24,333 bases of DNA, from positions 1 to 24,333 of the IMG/VR virus record IMGVR_UViG_3300034523_000103. One strand, written 5' to 3'. The DNA is from a virus. This document shows positions 2,022-19,020 of this stretch, in pieces (position 1 is the stretch's first letter; each line of letters starts with the position of its first letter). The notes beneath the pieces are model-generated. The model was not told where the DNA came from. It ran no database searches and worked only from the letters and a program-made list of their open reading frames with translations. The position numbers and the translations under genes are program-made.

Positions 2022-2498
2022 ATGGCAGTACTACGAAGCGAGGTCAAAGCCTTCATTGTTCAGGCGCTCGCCTGCTTTGATACGCCATCTCAAGTGGTCG
2101 AGTCGGTCAAGAAGGAATTTGGACTCGATCTGAGTCGCCAGCAGTGCGAATCCCACGACCCGACAAAGTTCGCCGGGCGAGCGCTCGGAGTGAAGTGGGC
2201 CGAGTTGTTTCACTCTGCCCGCAAGCGGTTTCGTGAAGAGACGGAAGCCATCCCGATCGCTAATCGTGCGTATCGATTGCGCGCGCTGGGCCGCATGGCC
2301 GAGAAAGCCGAGAGCATGCGCAACCTGGCGCTGACCGCTCAGTTGTACGAGCAGGCCGCCAAAGAGGTGGGCGATGTCTACGTGAATCGCCGCCTCGAAC
2401 CTGAGAAACCTCTGGGCTCCCAAGCGGACCAGCAGCACGCCGTTGCTGAGTACACCCTGGAGCCTGATGAGAATGTCCCCGCTACCCCGTACCTTTGA
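2022..2498 (+). CDS. terS: terminase small subunit (DUF2280 type)
   Basis: This 158-aa protein begins MAVLRSEVKAF and contains CFDTPSQV and SRQQCESHDPTK. These are the hallmarks of the DUF2280 phage family, taken as small terminase subunits that recognise the packaging site and load the large subunit. ATG 2022 is preferred, with GGATG at 2009-2013. A TTG at 2004 would add six residues but has poor spacing. The N-terminal half is a compact helical DNA-binding domain. The central helices (about 65-120) are rich in Ala, Arg and Glu and suit oligomer formation. The gene overlaps the start of the large subunit by about 32 bases, so the two are co-translated. No packaging site could be recognised by eye. 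Confidence 0.8.
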   Translation: MAVLRSEVKAFIVQALACFDTPSQVVESVKKEFGLDLSRQQCESHDPTKFAGRALGVKWAELFHSARKRFREETEAIPIANRAYRLRALGRMAEKAESMRNLALTAQLYEQAAKEVGDVYVNRRLEPEKPLGSQADQQHAVAEYTLEPDENVPATPYL

Positions 2499-4704
2499 CC
2501 CGCCGGTGAAGCTGACGCCCAAGCAGGCGAACATTTACTGCTGGGGTTTCCAGCCCGAAGCCCGCTTCCGCGATGCGGTGTGTGGTCGCCGGTTTGGCAA
2601 GACGTTCCTGGGCAAAGCCGAGATGCGCCGTGCCGCTCGCCTTGCTGCGGAGTGGGGCGTGAGCGTTGAGGACGAGATCTGGTATGGCGCGCCTACGTTC
2701 AAACAGGCCAAGCGCGTGTTCTGGCGTCGCCTGAAGCAAGCTATCCCCGAAGCATGGCGTGCGCACCGCCCGAACGAGACGGAATGCTCGATCACCCTCA
2801 AGTCCGGCCACGTCATGCGCGTGGTGGGGCTCGACAACTACGACAACCTGCGCGGCTCCGGCCTGTTCTTCGTCCTAGTGGATGAATGGGCGGACTGCCC
2901 GTGGGAAGCCTGGGAAGAAGTCCTGCGGCCGATGCTCTCTACCTGCCAGTACTCGATACCGGGCGTTGGCATGCGCAAGGGCGGACACGCGCTGCGTATC
3001 GGCACGCCGAAAGGCTTCAACCATTGCTACGACACGTTCCTCGATGGCCGGCCAGGCCATGAACCCGATCACAAGAGCTGGCTGTACACCTCGCTCGACG
3101 GCGGCAACGTCCCGGCTGAAGAGCTGGAAGCTGCCCGCCGTAAGATGGACCCTCGGACATTCCGGCAGGAATACGAGGCCAGCTTCGAGAACTACCAGGG
3201 CGTCGTCTACTACACGTTCAATCGTGAGGCTAACCGGACCAGCGAGGCTATCAAGCGCGGCGAGGCACTGCACATCGGCATGGACTTCAACGTCATGAAG
3301 ATGGCGGCGGTGGTCTATGTCGTGCGTGACGGACTGCCCCTGGCGCTGGATGAGTTCCACTCTGTGCGCGACACGCCTGACATGATCGAGAAAATCCAGG
3401 CGCGGTTTGCGGGGCACAACATCGCCGTTTACCCGGATGCCAGCGGCCAGAACACCAGCAGCAAAAATGCCAGTGAGTCCGACCTGTCATTGCTCACGAA
3501 AGCCGGCTTCACCGTGGTGGTCGATTCCACAAACCCAAGCGTGAAAGACCGAGTGAACTCGGTAAACGCCATGTTCCTGAACACCTATGGCGAGCGGCGC
3601 ATGAAGGTCAACATCGACCAATGCCCGCAACTTACCCAGTGTCTTGAGCGGCAGACCTACACCGACAAGGGCGAGCCTGACAAGAAGGGAGGCTATGACC
3701 ATATGTGCTTCTCAGGAAGGACACTGGTTCAAACCCGCAAAGGCTTGGTTCGATTTGATGAGCTTCCCGAGTCCGGGGAGGTCATTGGGCCCATGGGTGA
3801 ATTCGTTCCTTATCACTCTGCAGGTAAAACCGGCAATAAAGTAACCGTCAGGGTAGAGCTTGCTGGTGGTTACGTAATAGAATGCACTCCTGATCATAGA
3901 TTCTTGACGGGAGATGGTTCATGGGTAATGGCGAAAGAGTTGTTGGGCCGAGAGTGCGTGTCCTTAGTGATACCGCGCAGGAGTTCGAGGGCGTCATCTA
4001 TTACTTGTGCGGCAACTACTTTGCCGACTCAAGCTCAGACACGGAGCGCCGATTACACCGAGCCGTTTGGCTCGCCTACCATCTGCACATCCCGGAAGGC
4101 TTCCATGTCCATCATGAAGATGAGGACCGAAGCCATAACCAGATTGAAAATCTTCTCTGCCTTCCTGGTGGAGAGCATATTCGGCATCACAATCTGGAGC
4201 GAAGAGAAGAGCTTGCTGAGATCGGGCGAAAATATCAGCCTCGAACAAAGGAGTGGCATGCATCAGAGGCTGGAAGGCAGTGGCACAAGCAGCACTACCA
4301 AAACACTGCTGAAAAGCTTCACGCGCGCCACGAAGCGCCTTGCTCGTGCTGCGGGAAGGTGTTTCTCGCCAGCGAAAGTGTCAAAAACTCAGATGTTCGC
4401 TATTGCTCAAAATCCTGTAAGGCGCATGCGCGCAGACAGAGCGGCGTTGACGATGTTGCTCGAGTCTGTGGAAAGTGCGGAGCAGGGTTCATGGCAAACA
4501 AGTACAGCGCTCGTAAAAGCTGTGACACATGCTTTCCCGCTCGAAGAACAAAGCGTTTATTGCCTGACAGTGCCTGATTACGGGTGCTTCAAGTTAAGCG
4601 AAGAGTCCCCCATCGTCTCGAACTGCGACGCCGCTGGCTACTTCATTGCCAAGCGCTACCCGATCAAGGTCATCAACACATCCACCACATCCCTGAGAAT
4701 CTGA
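2467..4704 (+). CDS. terL: terminase large subunit precursor interrupted by an intein
   Basis: This is the ATP-driven DNA-packaging motor and nuclease. Counting from ATG 2467 (GGAG at 2459-2462; ATG 2473 is an alternative), Walker A is CGRRFGKT at 39-46. Walker B is FVLVDE at 135-140, and the coupling motif GTPKG is at 179-183. The RNase H-like nuclease has GMDFN (Asp273), YPDASG (Asp324), and a third acidic motif split by the intein: GGYDHM | CDAAGY. The precursor has 745 residues. Removing residues 414-719 gives a 439-aa enzyme, the usual size for the family, so splicing is needed for activity. The last 26 residues lie after the intein. The stop is two bases before the portal ATG. A nested HNH gene occupies another frame of the intein. 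Confidence 0.9.
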   Translation: MRMSPLPRTFDPPVKLTPKQANIYCWGFQPEARFRDAVCGRRFGKTFLGKAEMRRAARLAAEWGVSVEDEIWYGAPTFKQAKRVFWRRLKQAIPEAWRAHRPNETECSITLKSGHVMRVVGLDNYDNLRGSGLFFVLVDEWADCPWEAWEEVLRPMLSTCQYSIPGVGMRKGGHALRIGTPKGFNHCYDTFLDGRPGHEPDHKSWLYTSLDGGNVPAEELEAARRKMDPRTFRQEYEASFENYQGVVYYTFNREANRTSEAIKRGEALHIGMDFNVMKMAAVVYVVRDGLPLALDEFHSVRDTPDMIEKIQARFAGHNIAVYPDASGQNTSSKNASESDLSLLTKAGFTVVVDSTNPSVKDRVNSVNAMFLNTYGERRMKVNIDQCPQLTQCLERQTYTDKGEPDKKGGYDHMCFSGRTLVQTRKGLVRFDELPESGEVIGPMGEFVPYHSAGKTGNKVTVRVELAGGYVIECTPDHRFLTGDGSWVMAKELLGRECVSLVIPRRSSRASSITCAATTLPTQAQTRSADYTEPFGSPTICTSRKASMSIMKMRTEAITRLKIFSAFLVESIFGITIWSEEKSLLRSGENISLEQRSGMHQRLEGSGTSSTTKTLLKSFTRATKRLARAAGRCFSPAKVSKTQMFAIAQNPVRRMRADRAALTMLLESVESAEQGSWQTSTALVKAVTHAFPLEEQSVYCLTVPDYGCFKLSEESPIVSNCDAAGYFIAKRYPIKVINTSTTSLRI
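3706..4623 (+). other. intein within the terminase large subunit (306 aa)
   Basis: It begins at Cys1 (TGC 3706-3708) with CFSGRTLVQTRKG, a typical block A. Block B is IECTPDHRFLT, with Thr61 and His64. The C-terminal blocks are SVYCLTVPDYGCFKL (block F, from about residue 284) and SPIVSN | C. The terminal Asn306 is at 4621-4623 and the +1 nucleophile is Cys (4624-4626). The penultimate residue is Ser, where most inteins have His. The region between blocks B and F (residues about 92-283) shows no endonuclease motif in this frame. It instead looks like a translation of the HNH gene read out of frame. Placement at the nuclease motif of TerL fits the rule that inteins sit in conserved active sites. 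Confidence 0.9.
3921..4577 (+). CDS. HNH homing endonuclease nested out of frame inside the intein
   Basis: A 218-aa ORF starts at ATG 3921, with GGGAG at 3909-3913 and a seven-base spacer. It lies in a different frame from terL. Residues 45-90 form an HNH nuclease: HRAVWLAYH, then HVHHEDEDRSHNQIENL (His64/His65, Asn73, Asn77) and the distal His86, 89 and 90. The C-terminal part has two cysteine clusters that suit zinc binding: CSCCGKVF with YCSKSC (141-166), and VCGKCGAGF with SCDTC (183-204). It ends inside block F of the intein. It should cut an intein-less terL allele at the insertion point and so drive homing. Base composition is more A/T-rich than in flanking terL. Its own ribosome site and start argue for separate translation rather than a sequencing frameshift. 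Confidence 0.85.
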   Translation: MGNGERVVGPRVRVLSDTAQEFEGVIYYLCGNYFADSSSDTERRLHRAVWLAYHLHIPEGFHVHHEDEDRSHNQIENLLCLPGGEHIRHHNLERREELAEIGRKYQPRTKEWHASEAGRQWHKQHYQNTAEKLHARHEAPCSCCGKVFLASESVKNSDVRYCSKSCKAHARRQSGVDDVARVCGKCGAGFMANKYSARKSCDTCFPARRTKRLLPDSA

Positions 4705-13946: not shown

Positions 13947-14606
13947 CTATTTGAATTTAATCGAATCTAGGAGCTTGAGGGCTGCCTCTGAAGCGTTATC
14001 TGGATCGCGTGCAGCCTCGGCAATGACCTCAAGATACCGCTCCAAAACTTCTCCCGGGGTGAGACCGAACTTTTCTGCCGTATTAATGAGTGACTGGTAT
14101 GCGTCCGTGCTTGCGGCAAAGGTCACGGGCTCGTCGGGGCTTTCAACAAAATCCAGTCTTATGCGAACAGTTTCCGCTTCGTCTTTCTCCCCCGCCAGTT
14201 CCGATACGCTTACGCCCAGCGCGTCGGCCAGTTTGTAGATGTCATCGGTGCTCGGCGAGAGCTCGGCCAGCTCAAAGTCGGTCAGCACCGAGGCATCAAT
14301 TCCTGTCCTTTTGGCGAGCAGGCGAAGGCTAATTTTTTTGGCGCAGCGCAGCTCAAGAAGACGAGTGGAGAAGCCTTCGTACAACTCAATGCTCGGGCGG
14401 CTTACCTCCTCTCCTTGAAGCTCATTGGTAGAAACGCCGAGCGCGTCCGCTAACCGCATTAAGACCTTGAGGCGAGGTATGGACTTGCCGGACTCATACT
14501 TGGAAATCATCGACCATGCGACTCCGGCGGCAGCACCAAGCTCGCGCTGGGTGAGCCCCTTCTGAGCCCTAAGTTGAGTGAGCCGTTCAGCGAATGTTGC
14601 TTTCAT
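13947..14606 (-). CDS. repressor with two tandem XRE-type HTH domains
   Basis: A 219-aa protein read leftward from ATG 14606 (AGGGA just upstream). Residues 7-62 are a first HTH_3 domain (LTQLRAQKGLTQRELGAAAG, SMISKYESGKSIP). Residues 80-137 are a second (RLLELRCAKKISLRLLAKRT, then FELAELSPSTDDIYKLADAL). Each ends with the same ADALGVS-x2-EL motif, so the protein arose by internal duplication. The C-terminal 80 residues may bind other subunits. There is no RecA-cleavage Ala-Gly/Ser-Lys pattern, so an antirepressor rather than the SOS response may inactivate it. It is divergent from an arc-ant-like pair and converges on the tail chaperone gene. It probably acts at the palindrome 14623-14647 and represses its own promoter and the rightward genes. 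Confidence 0.82.
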   Translation of the reverse strand: MKATFAERLTQLRAQKGLTQRELGAAAGVAWSMISKYESGKSIPRLKVLMRLADALGVSTNELQGEEVSRPSIELYEGFSTRLLELRCAKKISLRLLAKRTGIDASVLTDFELAELSPSTDDIYKLADALGVSVSELAGEKDEAETVRIRLDFVESPDEPVTFAASTDAYQSLINTAEKFGLTPGEVLERYLEVIAEAARDPDNASEAALKLLDSIKFK

Positions 14607-14647: not shown

Positions 14648-14678
14648 CAAGCGTATGCCCCGAAAGGCACAAAAGGCA

Positions 14679-14738
14679 ACAAACGAAACTTTGTTGTTGA
14701 CAGACGACACAAACGGAACAAAACTACACAAACGAAAC
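14679..14738 (+). promoter_or_regulatory. three 11-bp direct repeats and a -35-like box upstream of arc-like gene A
   Basis: ACAAACGAAAC occurs at 14679-14689 and 14728-14738, and as ACAAACGGAAC at 14709-14719. TTGACA (14697-14702) is a perfect -35 match, but the -10 at the expected place (AAAACT, 14720-14725) is weak, so an activator may be needed. The repeats flank and overlap this promoter and are likely binding sites for a regulator of the module, perhaps the Arc-like protein. Confidence 0.5.
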
Positions 14739-14756
14739 GCAGGCAAGGAGCTGGTA

Positions 14757-14927
14757 ATGAGCGAAGTGAAAGAGAAGAAAGTGGTAGGTATTCGTCTGGT
14801 CGATTTGATGCGGGAGAGGCTCAGTGTTCAAGCCGAACTGAACGGTCGCAGTCTGAGCGGTGAGATCGTCTACCGACTGAGGAAGTCGCTGGAGCAGGAG
14901 GGCGAGCATGAAAAGCAGCGCGCATAA
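14757..14927 (+). CDS. Arc-like ribbon-helix-helix repressor (module A)
   Basis: A 56-aa protein from ATG 14757, with AAGGAG at 14745-14750. After a short basic arm, KVVGIRLVDLMRERLSVQAE and LNGRSLSGEIVYRLRKSL form the beta strand and two helices of the Arc/Mnt RHH fold (PF03869 type). NGRS-x-x-x-E-I is the turn also found in P22 Arc. As in P22, it sits directly before an antirepressor gene and probably limits transcription of that operon. The stop at 14925-14927 runs into a hairpin whose T-tract faces the minus strand. The frame is open further upstream, but that part lacks a start signal and overlaps the operator region. Confidence 0.8.
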   Translation: MSEVKEKKVVGIRLVDLMRERLSVQAELNGRSLSGEIVYRLRKSLEQEGEHEKQRA

Positions 14928-14996
14928 AAAAACCCCAGCGCTGGCCGGCGCTGAGGTTTTGGGTAACGAATCCAACTATTCAGGAAAGAAACGTCA
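14926..14996 (-). ncRNA. candidate antisense RNA, sar-like (module A)
   Basis: On the minus strand, ATGACA (complement of 15025-15030), 16 bases and TATGAT (complement of 15003-15008) preceded by TGC form an extended -10 promoter inside the ant start. Transcription would begin near 14996 and cover the ant Shine-Dalgarno. It would end at a hairpin with 9 bp (14933-14941 with 14948-14956, a G-U in this orientation but a C-A mismatch in the other) followed by seven U. The RNA would be about 70 nt, close to P22 sar RNA, which blocks ant translation. Confidence 0.6.
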
Positions 14997-15838
14997 TGAC
15001 GAATCATAGCACAGCCGCATCCAATGTCATCCACTTCGCCTTTGGGGCGAAGAGTGTTCGTATTCAGGAGATCGAAGGGGCGCCCTGGTTCTGCGTAACG
15101 GATGTCTGCAGCATCCTCGGGTATTCGAATAGTCGTGATGCCATGTCCAAGCATTGCCGCGAGAAGGGTGTAGCGAAACGCGACACCCTTACCTCCAAAG
15201 GCAAGCAGGCATTGACGTTCATTGACGAAGGCAACCTCTACCGCCTGATCATCAAGAGCCGCAAGGAAGAAGCGCAGCGTTTCGAGTCTTGGGTTTGTGA
15301 TGAGGTGCTCCCTGCAATCCGCAAGACGGGCCGCTACGAAGATCAGGGCAAGATGGCCGAGCTGATGGATCAGCTGAGCCTGAGCCAGTTCAATACGATC
15401 AAGGGAGTGATTCGCGACAAGATCAAGGCTGCACCTGCAGAGAAGCGCCAAGGCTTGCAGCTAGTCATGCATAACCGCCTGCATACCCGGTTCAACGTGC
15501 CGCGTACCGAGTTGATCCCGGCCAGTCAGTTCGAAGCCGCGTGCAATTTCGTTGCGGCTTATGCGCTTGAGGGTGAGTACCTGCCGAAGCAGGAGGGCAT
15601 ACAGATCGCCGGGAGCCCAAGGTCGCGCTACTTGGTCAGTTTCGACCACAAGGGCGACCAACGAGTCCAAATGATCCCTGCTGATGCTTGCGTAATGACG
15701 CATCGGGAATTGATAGCGGCAATTGTTACACCGGGCGAGCTTCCTGTATCGACTGACGAGATGTTTGAGTTCGTTGTGGCTGGCATGTCCAACTTGAAGG
15801 CTCGCTCCGATTATCAGGCTCGCAAGGTGGCAGCATGA
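14996..15838 (+). CDS. BRO-N family antirepressor (module A)
   Basis: This 280-aa protein starts at ATG 14996, with AGGAAAG upstream. Residues about 16-115 are a BRO-N domain: APWFCVTDVCSILGYSNSRD, then IDEGNLYRLIIKSRKEEAQRF and WVCDEVLPAIRKTGRY. This domain is found in phage antirepressors and binds DNA or repressors. The C-terminal part contains RFNVPRTELIPA and ACNFVAAY-LEGE (165-194), shared with the second BRO protein in the window, so the two are paralogs. It should inactivate a prophage repressor and promote lytic growth. The stop overlaps the Rha gene in ATGA. A candidate antisense RNA covers its ribosome site. Confidence 0.82.
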   Translation: MTNHSTAASNVIHFAFGAKSVRIQEIEGAPWFCVTDVCSILGYSNSRDAMSKHCREKGVAKRDTLTSKGKQALTFIDEGNLYRLIIKSRKEEAQRFESWVCDEVLPAIRKTGRYEDQGKMAELMDQLSLSQFNTIKGVIRDKIKAAPAEKRQGLQLVMHNRLHTRFNVPRTELIPASQFEAACNFVAAYALEGEYLPKQEGIQIAGSPRSRYLVSFDHKGDQRVQMIPADACVMTHRELIAAIVTPGELPVSTDEMFEFVVAGMSNLKARSDYQARKVAA

Positions 15839-17446: not shown

Positions 17447-17782
17447 CTACTTCTTCTTGTTGCGAAGCGCTTCCGCCGCCTCATGCACCGCTCCACCCCG
17501 AGCCTCGGCTAGCTGCCTGGCGCGCCGCTCTATCTCTTGCTCCATTTGCAGGGCGAAGTCGGCAACGATATTTGAAATAGGCTGAGAGGCCTTCTCCCGA
17601 ATCTGGCTCAGCCGGTATTCGCGTTCGACTGCGGATTCTTGTGGGTCGAGGCTTTCCTCTAGGCGCGAAATTATCTCTGCGTGCAACGATCTTGAACCCG
17701 CCTTGGCGCTTTCTTCGAGGCGCCGCCTTAGCTCGACAGGCATTCGAATTGGGTACGGGGAGATGGCGTGTCGATCATTCAT
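17447..17782 (-). CDS. Mnt-like ribbon-helix-helix repressor (module B)
   Basis: A 111-aa protein read leftward from ATG 17782. Residues 8-47 form an Arc/Mnt RHH domain: SPYPIRMPVELRRRLEESAK, then GSRSLHAEIISRLEESL. The rest is a long charged helix (QMEQEIERRARQLAEA) suited to a coiled coil, in the way the Mnt C-terminus forms tetramers. It is divergent from an arc-like gene followed by an antirepressor, which is the mnt-arc-ant order of P22 immI. The ribosome site is weak (GAG only), so expression is probably low. On the minus strand TTGAGT (17833-17838), 17 bases and CATACT (17810-17815) could be its promoter. The protein should repress the ant promoter during lysogeny. Confidence 0.8.
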   Translation of the reverse strand: MNDRHAISPYPIRMPVELRRRLEESAKAGSRSLHAEIISRLEESLDPQESAVEREYRLSQIREKASQPISNIVADFALQMEQEIERRARQLAEARGGAVHEAAEALRNKKK

Positions 17783-17902: not shown

Positions 17903-18076
17903 ATGAAAGATGCACACAAGGTATCCCCATACAGCCTGCGGATTTCTGAGCAGCTGAAGGCCAGGGCGAGGGATGAGGCGCACGCGAACCGGCGCAGCCT
18001 TAATGCGGAGCTTGAGCTGTTAATTGAGGAGGGTTTCAAGTGGCGGGAAGCGCAGAAGAATCAGGCAGTAGCCTAA
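17903..18076 (+). CDS. Arc-like ribbon-helix-helix repressor (module B)
   Basis: A 57-aa protein from ATG 17903, with AAGGAG at 17891-17896. An in-frame ATG at 17864 falls inside the operator and promoter region and is unlikely. VSPYSLRISEQLKARARDEA and NRRSLNAELELLIEEGF give the RHH strand and two helices. The SPY-x-x-R start is shared with the divergent Mnt-like protein, as P22 Arc and Mnt share ancestry. It should repress the rightward promoter and so damp antirepressor synthesis. Its start is exactly 239 bp before the following ant start, the same as in module A. Confidence 0.82.
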   Translation: MKDAHKVSPYSLRISEQLKARARDEAHANRRSLNAELELLIEEGFKWREAQKNQAVA

Positions 18077-18077
18077 A

Positions 18078-18139
18078 ACGAAGAAACCCCGGCTTGCAGG
18101 CCAGGGCTTCGGATGTGAAAACTTTCGACGGAAATCACG
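18078..18139 (-). ncRNA. candidate antisense RNA, sar-like (module B)
   Basis: On the minus strand ATGACA (complement of 18168-18173), 16 bases and TATTAT (complement of 18146-18151) with an upstream TGC form an extended -10 promoter in the first codons of ant. The transcript would start near 18139 and mask the ant ribosome site. It would end at CCCTGGC/GCCGGGG (18100-18106 with 18087-18093), followed by TTTCTTCGTTTT. The hairpin has a G-U in this orientation but a C-A mismatch in the other, so it is built for leftward transcription. Confidence 0.6.
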
Positions 18140-18141
18140 AC

Positions 18142-19020
18142 ATGAATAATAGCACAGCGGTATCGAATGTCATTCCTTTCAGCTTCGGCAGGCAGCAGGT
18201 GCGCACGCTGATGATTGATGATCAGCCATGGTTCGCCGCCCAAGATGTACTCGACGCCCTTGAGTATGCCGATACATACAAGCCTTCTCGTGCTGTATCG
18301 CACGTCCCATCTCAATGGAAGGGTGTGCAACGGTTGCACACCCTTGGCGGCACACAGCAGATCATGATGATTTCGGAGCAAGGGCTGTACTTCGTGCTTG
18401 GCCGCTCCGATAAGCCCAAGGCCCTACCGTTTCAAATGTGGCTGGCAGGGGACGTGCTTCCATCTATTCGCAAGACTGGTGGCTACACGGACCATCAAGG
18501 CTCAATGGGCGATTTGGTCGGCTCCGTAATCGGTACCAGTGGCGAGCACGTCCTGGATCGGGTCATCGAGCAGAAGGCCTCGCCAGTACCTCATTCGCTC
18601 CAGCGCAGTTTCAAGCACACCATGAAGAGCCGGCTTCGCTCGCGCTTTAACGTTCCGCGCACTGCCTTGATTCCGGCGGAGTACCTGAACGACGCCTGCA
18701 ACTTCGTGGCGGCTTACTCCTTGGAAGGCGAGTGGATTGGCCGCGCCAGCTTGAACACCCACGAATTGACCGACAAGGAACTGTACGATGTTGGCTTCCT
18801 CATTCACCACTTCTTGGCGGTGAAAGGAATTTATGAGCGATGGGGTGTTGGTAGCGCGTTAAGAATGTTGGGTTCGCCAATCCCGGCAGAAATTACCGAC
18901 CACTTCAGCGATGCGATGATGGCTATAGGTGGGCTAAAAAAGCGCTCGGCCGACATGGATGTTGCGGCAAATCGCCTTGGCCTGCGGAATGGGAAGGCGA
19001 CTCGATCTGCCGCAGCCTAA
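18142..19020 (+). CDS. BRO-N family antirepressor (module B)
   Basis: This 292-aa protein starts at ATG 18142, with GGAAA upstream. The frame is open 34 codons further up, but that overlaps arc-like B and lacks a good start. Residues about 12-115 are a BRO-N domain (DDQPWFAAQDVLDALEYADT, SEQGLYFVLGRSDKPKALPF, WLAGDVLPSIRKTGGY). The middle carries RFNVPRTALIPA and ACNFVAAYSLEGEW (168-198), shared with the module A paralog. The C-terminus differs and ends AANRLGLRNGKATRSAAA. It should neutralise a repressor when the ant promoter is released. Its first codons overlap a candidate antisense promoter, and a terminator follows at 19053-19072. Confidence 0.82.
   Translation: MNNSTAVSNVIPFSFGRQQVRTLMIDDQPWFAAQDVLDALEYADTYKPSRAVSHVPSQWKGVQRLHTLGGTQQIMMISEQGLYFVLGRSDKPKALPFQMWLAGDVLPSIRKTGGYTDHQGSMGDLVGSVIGTSGEHVLDRVIEQKASPVPHSLQRSFKHTMKSRLRSRFNVPRTALIPAEYLNDACNFVAAYSLEGEWIGRASLNTHELTDKELYDVGFLIHHFLAVKGIYERWGVGSALRMLGSPIPAEITDHFSDAMMAIGGLKKRSADMDVAANRLGLRNGKATRSAAA

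Follow-up and report, generated by a model that had tools for sequence, protein, structure and literature searches.

The junction between the arc-like and ant genes of module A, one of two arc-ant modules carried by the window (the whole 24,333-base IMG/VR virus record IMGVR_UViG_3300034523_000103), very probably harbours on its minus strand a gene for a Sar-type antisense RNA, which would pair with the arc-ant mRNA and block translation of a Bro-N antirepressor. In the proposed mechanism, leftward transcription would start from a promoter embedded in the opening twelve codons of ant and stop at a terminator that works in one direction only and lies on the stop codon of arc. The resulting RNA, about 70 nt long, is perfectly complementary to the spacer between arc and ant, the ribosome-binding site of ant included. 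Pairing would keep ant silent both in the lysogen and at the start of infection, and the repressor of the prophage, or of a newly infecting phage, would thus be spared inactivation; the copy in module B would do likewise for its own ant. Promoter, terminator, direction, conservation and complementarity are read here from the sequence and its comparison with relatives, and we infer transcription, pairing, the block of translation and the effect on lysogeny from P22, in which sar pairs with ant mRNA and halts translation initiation (PMC12197685).

The two arc-ant modules and the predicted antisense element

Table 1. Coordinates of genes and predicted elements of modules A and B in the window
Feature	Position	Strand	Basis
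CI-type repressor, divergent, upstream of module A, where P22 has mnt	13947..14606	-	Pfam HTH_3 E 8.6e-29
arc-like repressor gene, module A, 56 aa	14757..14927	+	Pfam Arc PF03869 E 2.2e-7
arc A stop codon TAA	14925-14927	+	
Predicted Sar-type antisense RNA, module A, about 70 nt	14926..14996	-	Pair scan, models, folding; position as P22 sar
Terminator hairpin, module A, 13 pairs	14929..14960	-	U run over 14926-14932; covariation
Shine-Dalgarno AGGAAA of ant A, inside predicted antisense RNA	14982..14987	+	Sequence
ant A, antirepressor gene, Bro-N type, 280 aa	14996..15838	+	Pfam Bro-N E 2.3e-23; PHROG anti-repressor Ant
Predicted extended -10 (TGC TATGAT), module A, under ant codons 3-6	15003..15011	-	Box scan; codon footprint
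Predicted -35 box ATGACA, module A promoter, under ant codons 10-12	15025..15030	-	Box scan; codon footprint
Mnt-like (Arc family) repressor, divergent from module B	17447..17782	-	Pfam Arc E 1.1e-7
arc-like gene, module B, 57 aa	17903..18076	+	Pfam Arc E 0.0033 (below cut-off); position
Predicted Sar-type antisense RNA, module B, about 66 nt	18076..18141	-	Pair scan; RF00262 23.8 bits, below cut-off
Terminator hairpin, module B	18083..18110	-	Hairpin search; folding
ant B, antirepressor gene, Bro-N type	18142..19020	+	Pfam Bro-N E 1e-18
Predicted extended -10 (TGC TATTAT), module B	18146..18154	-	Promoter-terminator pair scan
Predicted -35 box ATGACA, module B	18168..18173	-	Promoter-terminator pair scan

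A preliminary description, made from the sequence alone, had proposed a minus-strand promoter with an extended TGC inside the ant codons, a hairpin followed by seven U right after arc, and an RNA of about 70 nt over the ant ribosome site, and each of these elements was recovered, with boxes, length and coordinates (14926-15030) as described. On the minus strand, ATGACA (15030..15025) and TATGAT (15008..15003) are separated by a 16-nt spacer, and the promoter (15030..15003) lies within ant codons 3-12 (ant ATG at 14996), aimed at arc. The RNA is predicted to start at about 14995-14997 and to end at about 14926, which gives 70-72 nt with both ends accurate to about two bases, and to span the arc-ant spacer together with the ant Shine-Dalgarno sequence (14982-14987). 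Its 3′ hairpin (14960..14929) is strong, and the predicted 5′ stem comprises only 5+3 pairs round a 13-nt loop. The seven-U run overlaps the arc stop codon, and one U-G pair of the hairpin on the antisense strand corresponds to a C-A mismatch on the sense strand, with folding energies of -26.4 kcal/mol antisense versus -21.2 kcal/mol sense. Because of the G-U on the antisense side and the near lack of a U tract on the sense side, the structure has the design of a terminator that stops leftward transcription and should let arc-ant transcription through; the leftward orientation and the G-U/C-A difference between the strands, both borne out here, had been proposed at the outset. Between the predicted RNA of either module and the target of the other, perfect complementarity never exceeds 7 nt, which suggests that the two RNAs probably form separate circuits.

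Upstream of arc A, at 14660-14740, the window contains ACAAACGAAAC / ACAAACGGAAC repeats, and relatives carry different, unrelated repeats at the matching position, as if each Arc or CI had an operator set of its own. Elsewhere in the window, a Proteo-phage-1 RNA (RF03044) is found at 219-297 upstream of the packaging genes (77.9 bits versus a cut-off of 42), and the 753-aa terminase large subunit ORF (2443-4704) has at residues 464-716, after the nuclease domain, an intein-splicing match below the Pfam cut-off (E 1.6e-6).

Chance expectation within the window

We scanned both strands of the whole 24-kb window for promoters with a terminator 25-105 nt further on. Exactly two such pairs were found, both on the minus strand at the two arc-ant junctions and both with promoters scoring 12 of 14 points, and 20 dinucleotide shuffles of the window yielded none. 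Scanned separately, the sites were no commoner than expected by chance (promoter-like, 2 versus 1.3 expected; terminator-like, 2 versus 4.1). When the protein was held fixed and codons were drawn according to phage usage, 0.4% of the random sequences contained a promoter this good, in module A as in module B. Because synonymous codons reach the score at that rate, the promoter of one gene taken alone is only moderately striking, and the weight is carried by comparison with relatives.

Conservation among relatives and alternative explanations

Relatives of the antirepressor were gathered by protein, and the promoter and hairpin played no part in their choice. The minus-strand promoter-terminator pair was present in 56 of 87 distinct antirepressor regions, the annotated sar of P22 being among those recovered, compared with 0/97 on the plus strand of the same regions, 0/97 in shuffled sequences and 2/97 elsewhere on the minus strand of the relatives' regions; since the sequences are mutually related, these counts are not independent and p-values derived from them are optimistic. 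Relatives devoid of promoter and terminator had been named in the preliminary description as potential evidence against it, and the comparison did not overturn the proposal. The pair follows the presence of arc: both parts were kept in 53 of the 65 relatives with arc, and relatives lacking arc had the pair in a single case out of 21, the other 20 lacking both parts. In the P. aeruginosa phages PAJU2, R656 and P54, which encode Ants with no upstream arc, neither the RNA nor the NNSTAxSN leader could be found.

Covariation, also proposed at the outset as a check, supports the hairpin: once 44 distinct elements are aligned, compensatory changes are seen at 9 of its 12 pairs and 97.5% of cells are paired, while none of 500 shuffles was as good and no slid control came near. 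Five relatives (L007, L008, L013, L028 and L036) display near-identical RNA 5′ halves joined to different terminator hairpins, and the reverse, which we take as a sign of recombination within the RNA gene.

Antisense promoters are known to interfere with opposing transcription by collision, and a leftward RNA could be made at this junction and yet act mainly through polymerase collision with arc-ant transcription, or on targets in trans. The convergent promoters, about 300 nt apart, would suit collision, but that mode of action needs neither a terminator nor a stable product of about 70 nt, both of which are conserved with covariation; moreover, the RNA ends just past the ribosome site in all relatives, and P22 sar works by pairing (PMC12197685). 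We therefore regard collision or action in trans as unlikely to be the main mode.

Even less probable, to the point of being very doubtful, is the reading in which the hairpin, which directly follows the arc stop codon, serves as a terminator or attenuator of rightward arc mRNA, with the promoter-like string arising as a by-product of a coding leader. The leader peptide is itself conserved, and neither promoters nor terminators exceed chance when scanned singly, as this reading would have it. Most relatives, however, have no sense-strand U tract after the hairpin and carry C-A mismatches on that strand, and with a symmetric finder treating G-U and A-C alike, used in place of one that favoured G-U, G-U pairs were more numerous on the antisense strand in 28 hairpins and on the sense strand in 1. 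Codon choice, too, is kept mainly under the -10 and -35 boxes. At shared amino acids, codon identity is 0.96, 0.79, 0.96 and 0.84 at ant codons 3-6 and 0.71-0.76 at codons 11-12, as compared with 0.41-0.57 at codons 7-10 and 13 and 0.44 in the body of ant; these two peaks match the footprint of the extended -10 and the -35 box. Codon 14, at 72%, is likewise high, perhaps through ordinary TTC preference. The leader is kept before unrelated domains and is absent from 42%-identical Ants without arc, such as that of PAJU2. In two relatives (L004 and L005), three leader codons are missing and ATGACA is thereby gone, and TTGAAA is found at exactly the same 16-nt spacing. That the antisense gene is a decayed relic in this phage, as the shortness of the contig (24 kb) might hint, is extremely improbable given the near-ideal boxes of both copies (12 of 14 points each) and the intact arc and ant frames.

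Distribution in Pseudomonas and other phages

Searched with a model of the element, 30 of 398 Pseudomonas genomes, or about 7%, contained 33 full-length matches with E of 6e-8 or better; most of these are unannotated, and weak matches restricted to model positions 72-116, which are plain terminators, were left out of the count. The Rfam sar model RF00262 (gathering cut-off 43 bits) exceeded its cut-off in one of these 398 genomes, as opposed to the 30 with strong matches to the new model. Since a draw over the wider class to which the Pseudomonas reference genome belongs yielded matches in only 1 of 369 genomes, we confine the claim of wide distribution to Pseudomonas and to the enteric phages found via their proteins.

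Small Arc/RHH-like genes lie upstream in the loci found with the model, and the genes 3′ of the arc-sar cassette encode Bro-N, P22_AR_N, AntA, ORF6N or Rha domains, with AlpA and DUF3077 added among the weaker matches. In eight Pseudomonas loci (L235, L239, L241-L244, L246 and L247), arc and a sar-like hairpin precede a gene of about 103 aa with DUF3077, which is not an antirepressor by any known annotation. The -10 box at the DUF3077 loci lacks TG and reads TATGCT, TATCCT or TATTCT, and a Sar function is for this reason less sure there. Taken together, the DUF3077 and AlpA loci have a -10 that is either without the TG extension or weak.

Two Pseudomonas phages, the only ones above noise in a BLASTN search of the region among phages, carry a sar-like RNA, found by the models, between arc and the antirepressor that is unannotated in their records: UFJF_PfDIW6 (78 bits), with a target annotated as antirepressor N-terminal domain protein, and Medea1 (68-73 bits), with a target annotated as Rha family. 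The 14-base pattern AATAATAGCACAGC, tried as a search key in viral contigs, was rejected, its matches being mostly due to chance. In the literature that we looked at joining antirepressors, antisense regulation and Pseudomonas, such an RNA is not described.

Since 1987 Sar has been a textbook example of an antisense RNA, that of one phage group, and what is new here is breadth, with one arc-sar cassette placed before Bro-N, P22_AR_N, AntA, ORF6N and Rha genes. We lean, with some reserve, towards the view that arc and Sar make up an exchangeable control cassette of Pseudomonas prophages, which precedes antirepressor or regulator domains of five or more unrelated kinds and perhaps also non-antirepressors (AlpA, DUF3077); that the codons of the spliced-in leader mainly hold the Sar promoter; and that several mutually blind copies, each with its own immunity circuit, may share one phage. 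On the present evidence, Sar emerges as a widespread device of Pseudomonas temperate phages as well, largely invisible to Rfam, and the leader MxNNSTAxSNVIPF common to unrelated antirepressors is accounted for. The same evidence points to many unmapped immunity circuits, and arc with a sar-like hairpin upstream raises the possibility of a control role for DUF3077 in prophages.

Comparison with known antirepressor RNAs

Module A has a weak Rfam match to Esr41 (19 of 102 bits), which was dropped because Esr41 is an sRNA encoded on the SpLE1 island whose targets are iron genes, not an antirepressor RNA (PMC5286369). The c4 RNA of P1/P7 and the CA RNA of N15 are processed out of the antirepressor's own transcript, from a position upstream of ant, and have no opposite-strand promoter; this type was ruled out for module A, in which promoter and terminator are on the strand opposite ant. 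Like Sar, c4 and CA are small phage RNAs that stop antirepressor production (PMC12197685, PMC10732415).

The likeness to P22 sar put forward in the preliminary description extends to anatomy, position, length and strand asymmetry. In the P22 annotation, sar occupies 15021-15090 on the minus strand, Psar (15097-15125) lies inside ant (start 15091), and the 3′ end of sar with its terminator overlaps the arc stop codon. Module A has the same layout to within a few bases: in both, as in the sar annotated in epsilon34, the RNA is antisense to the arc-ant spacer and covers the ant ribosome site, and P22 and module A share a promoter in the first ant codons, a length of about 68-70 nt and a terminator on the arc stop. 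The stem of the P22 sar terminator, GAAGCCCU...GGGGCUUC, resembles those of module B and of relatives, and the gene order of module B is that of P22 immI. The differences are that the 5′ stem-loop of module A is predicted to be much weaker than that of P22 sar, that a CI-type repressor stands where P22 has mnt, that two sar-like copies are found in one phage, and that the target is a Bro-N antirepressor instead of the P22_AR_N type.

RF00262 passes its cut-off on P22, epsilon34 and CUS-3. Module A gives no match to it even at E 5, and module B gives a full-length match of 23.8 bits, under the cut-off. Module A is thus Sar-like in its readable features, the 5′ stem-loop being weak, yet falls outside RF00262 as modelled. 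In CUS-3 (L253), sar is intact and an unannotated ORF upstream of ant, at about 1031-1400, matches the arc profile (E 1.8e-10), to be set against the report that this phage appears to lack arc (PMC2629481). A covariance model built from 24 elements, none of them of P22 type, finds sar in the right place and on the right strand in P22 (34.6 bits, E 4e-8), epsilon34 (32.4 bits, E 1.6e-7) and CUS-3 (46.6 bits); it spans promoter and terminator, and its score is partly generic. Because module A escapes RF00262 and module B stays under its cut-off, the predicted RNA of module A is best described as a divergent Sar, directed at a Bro-N antirepressor.
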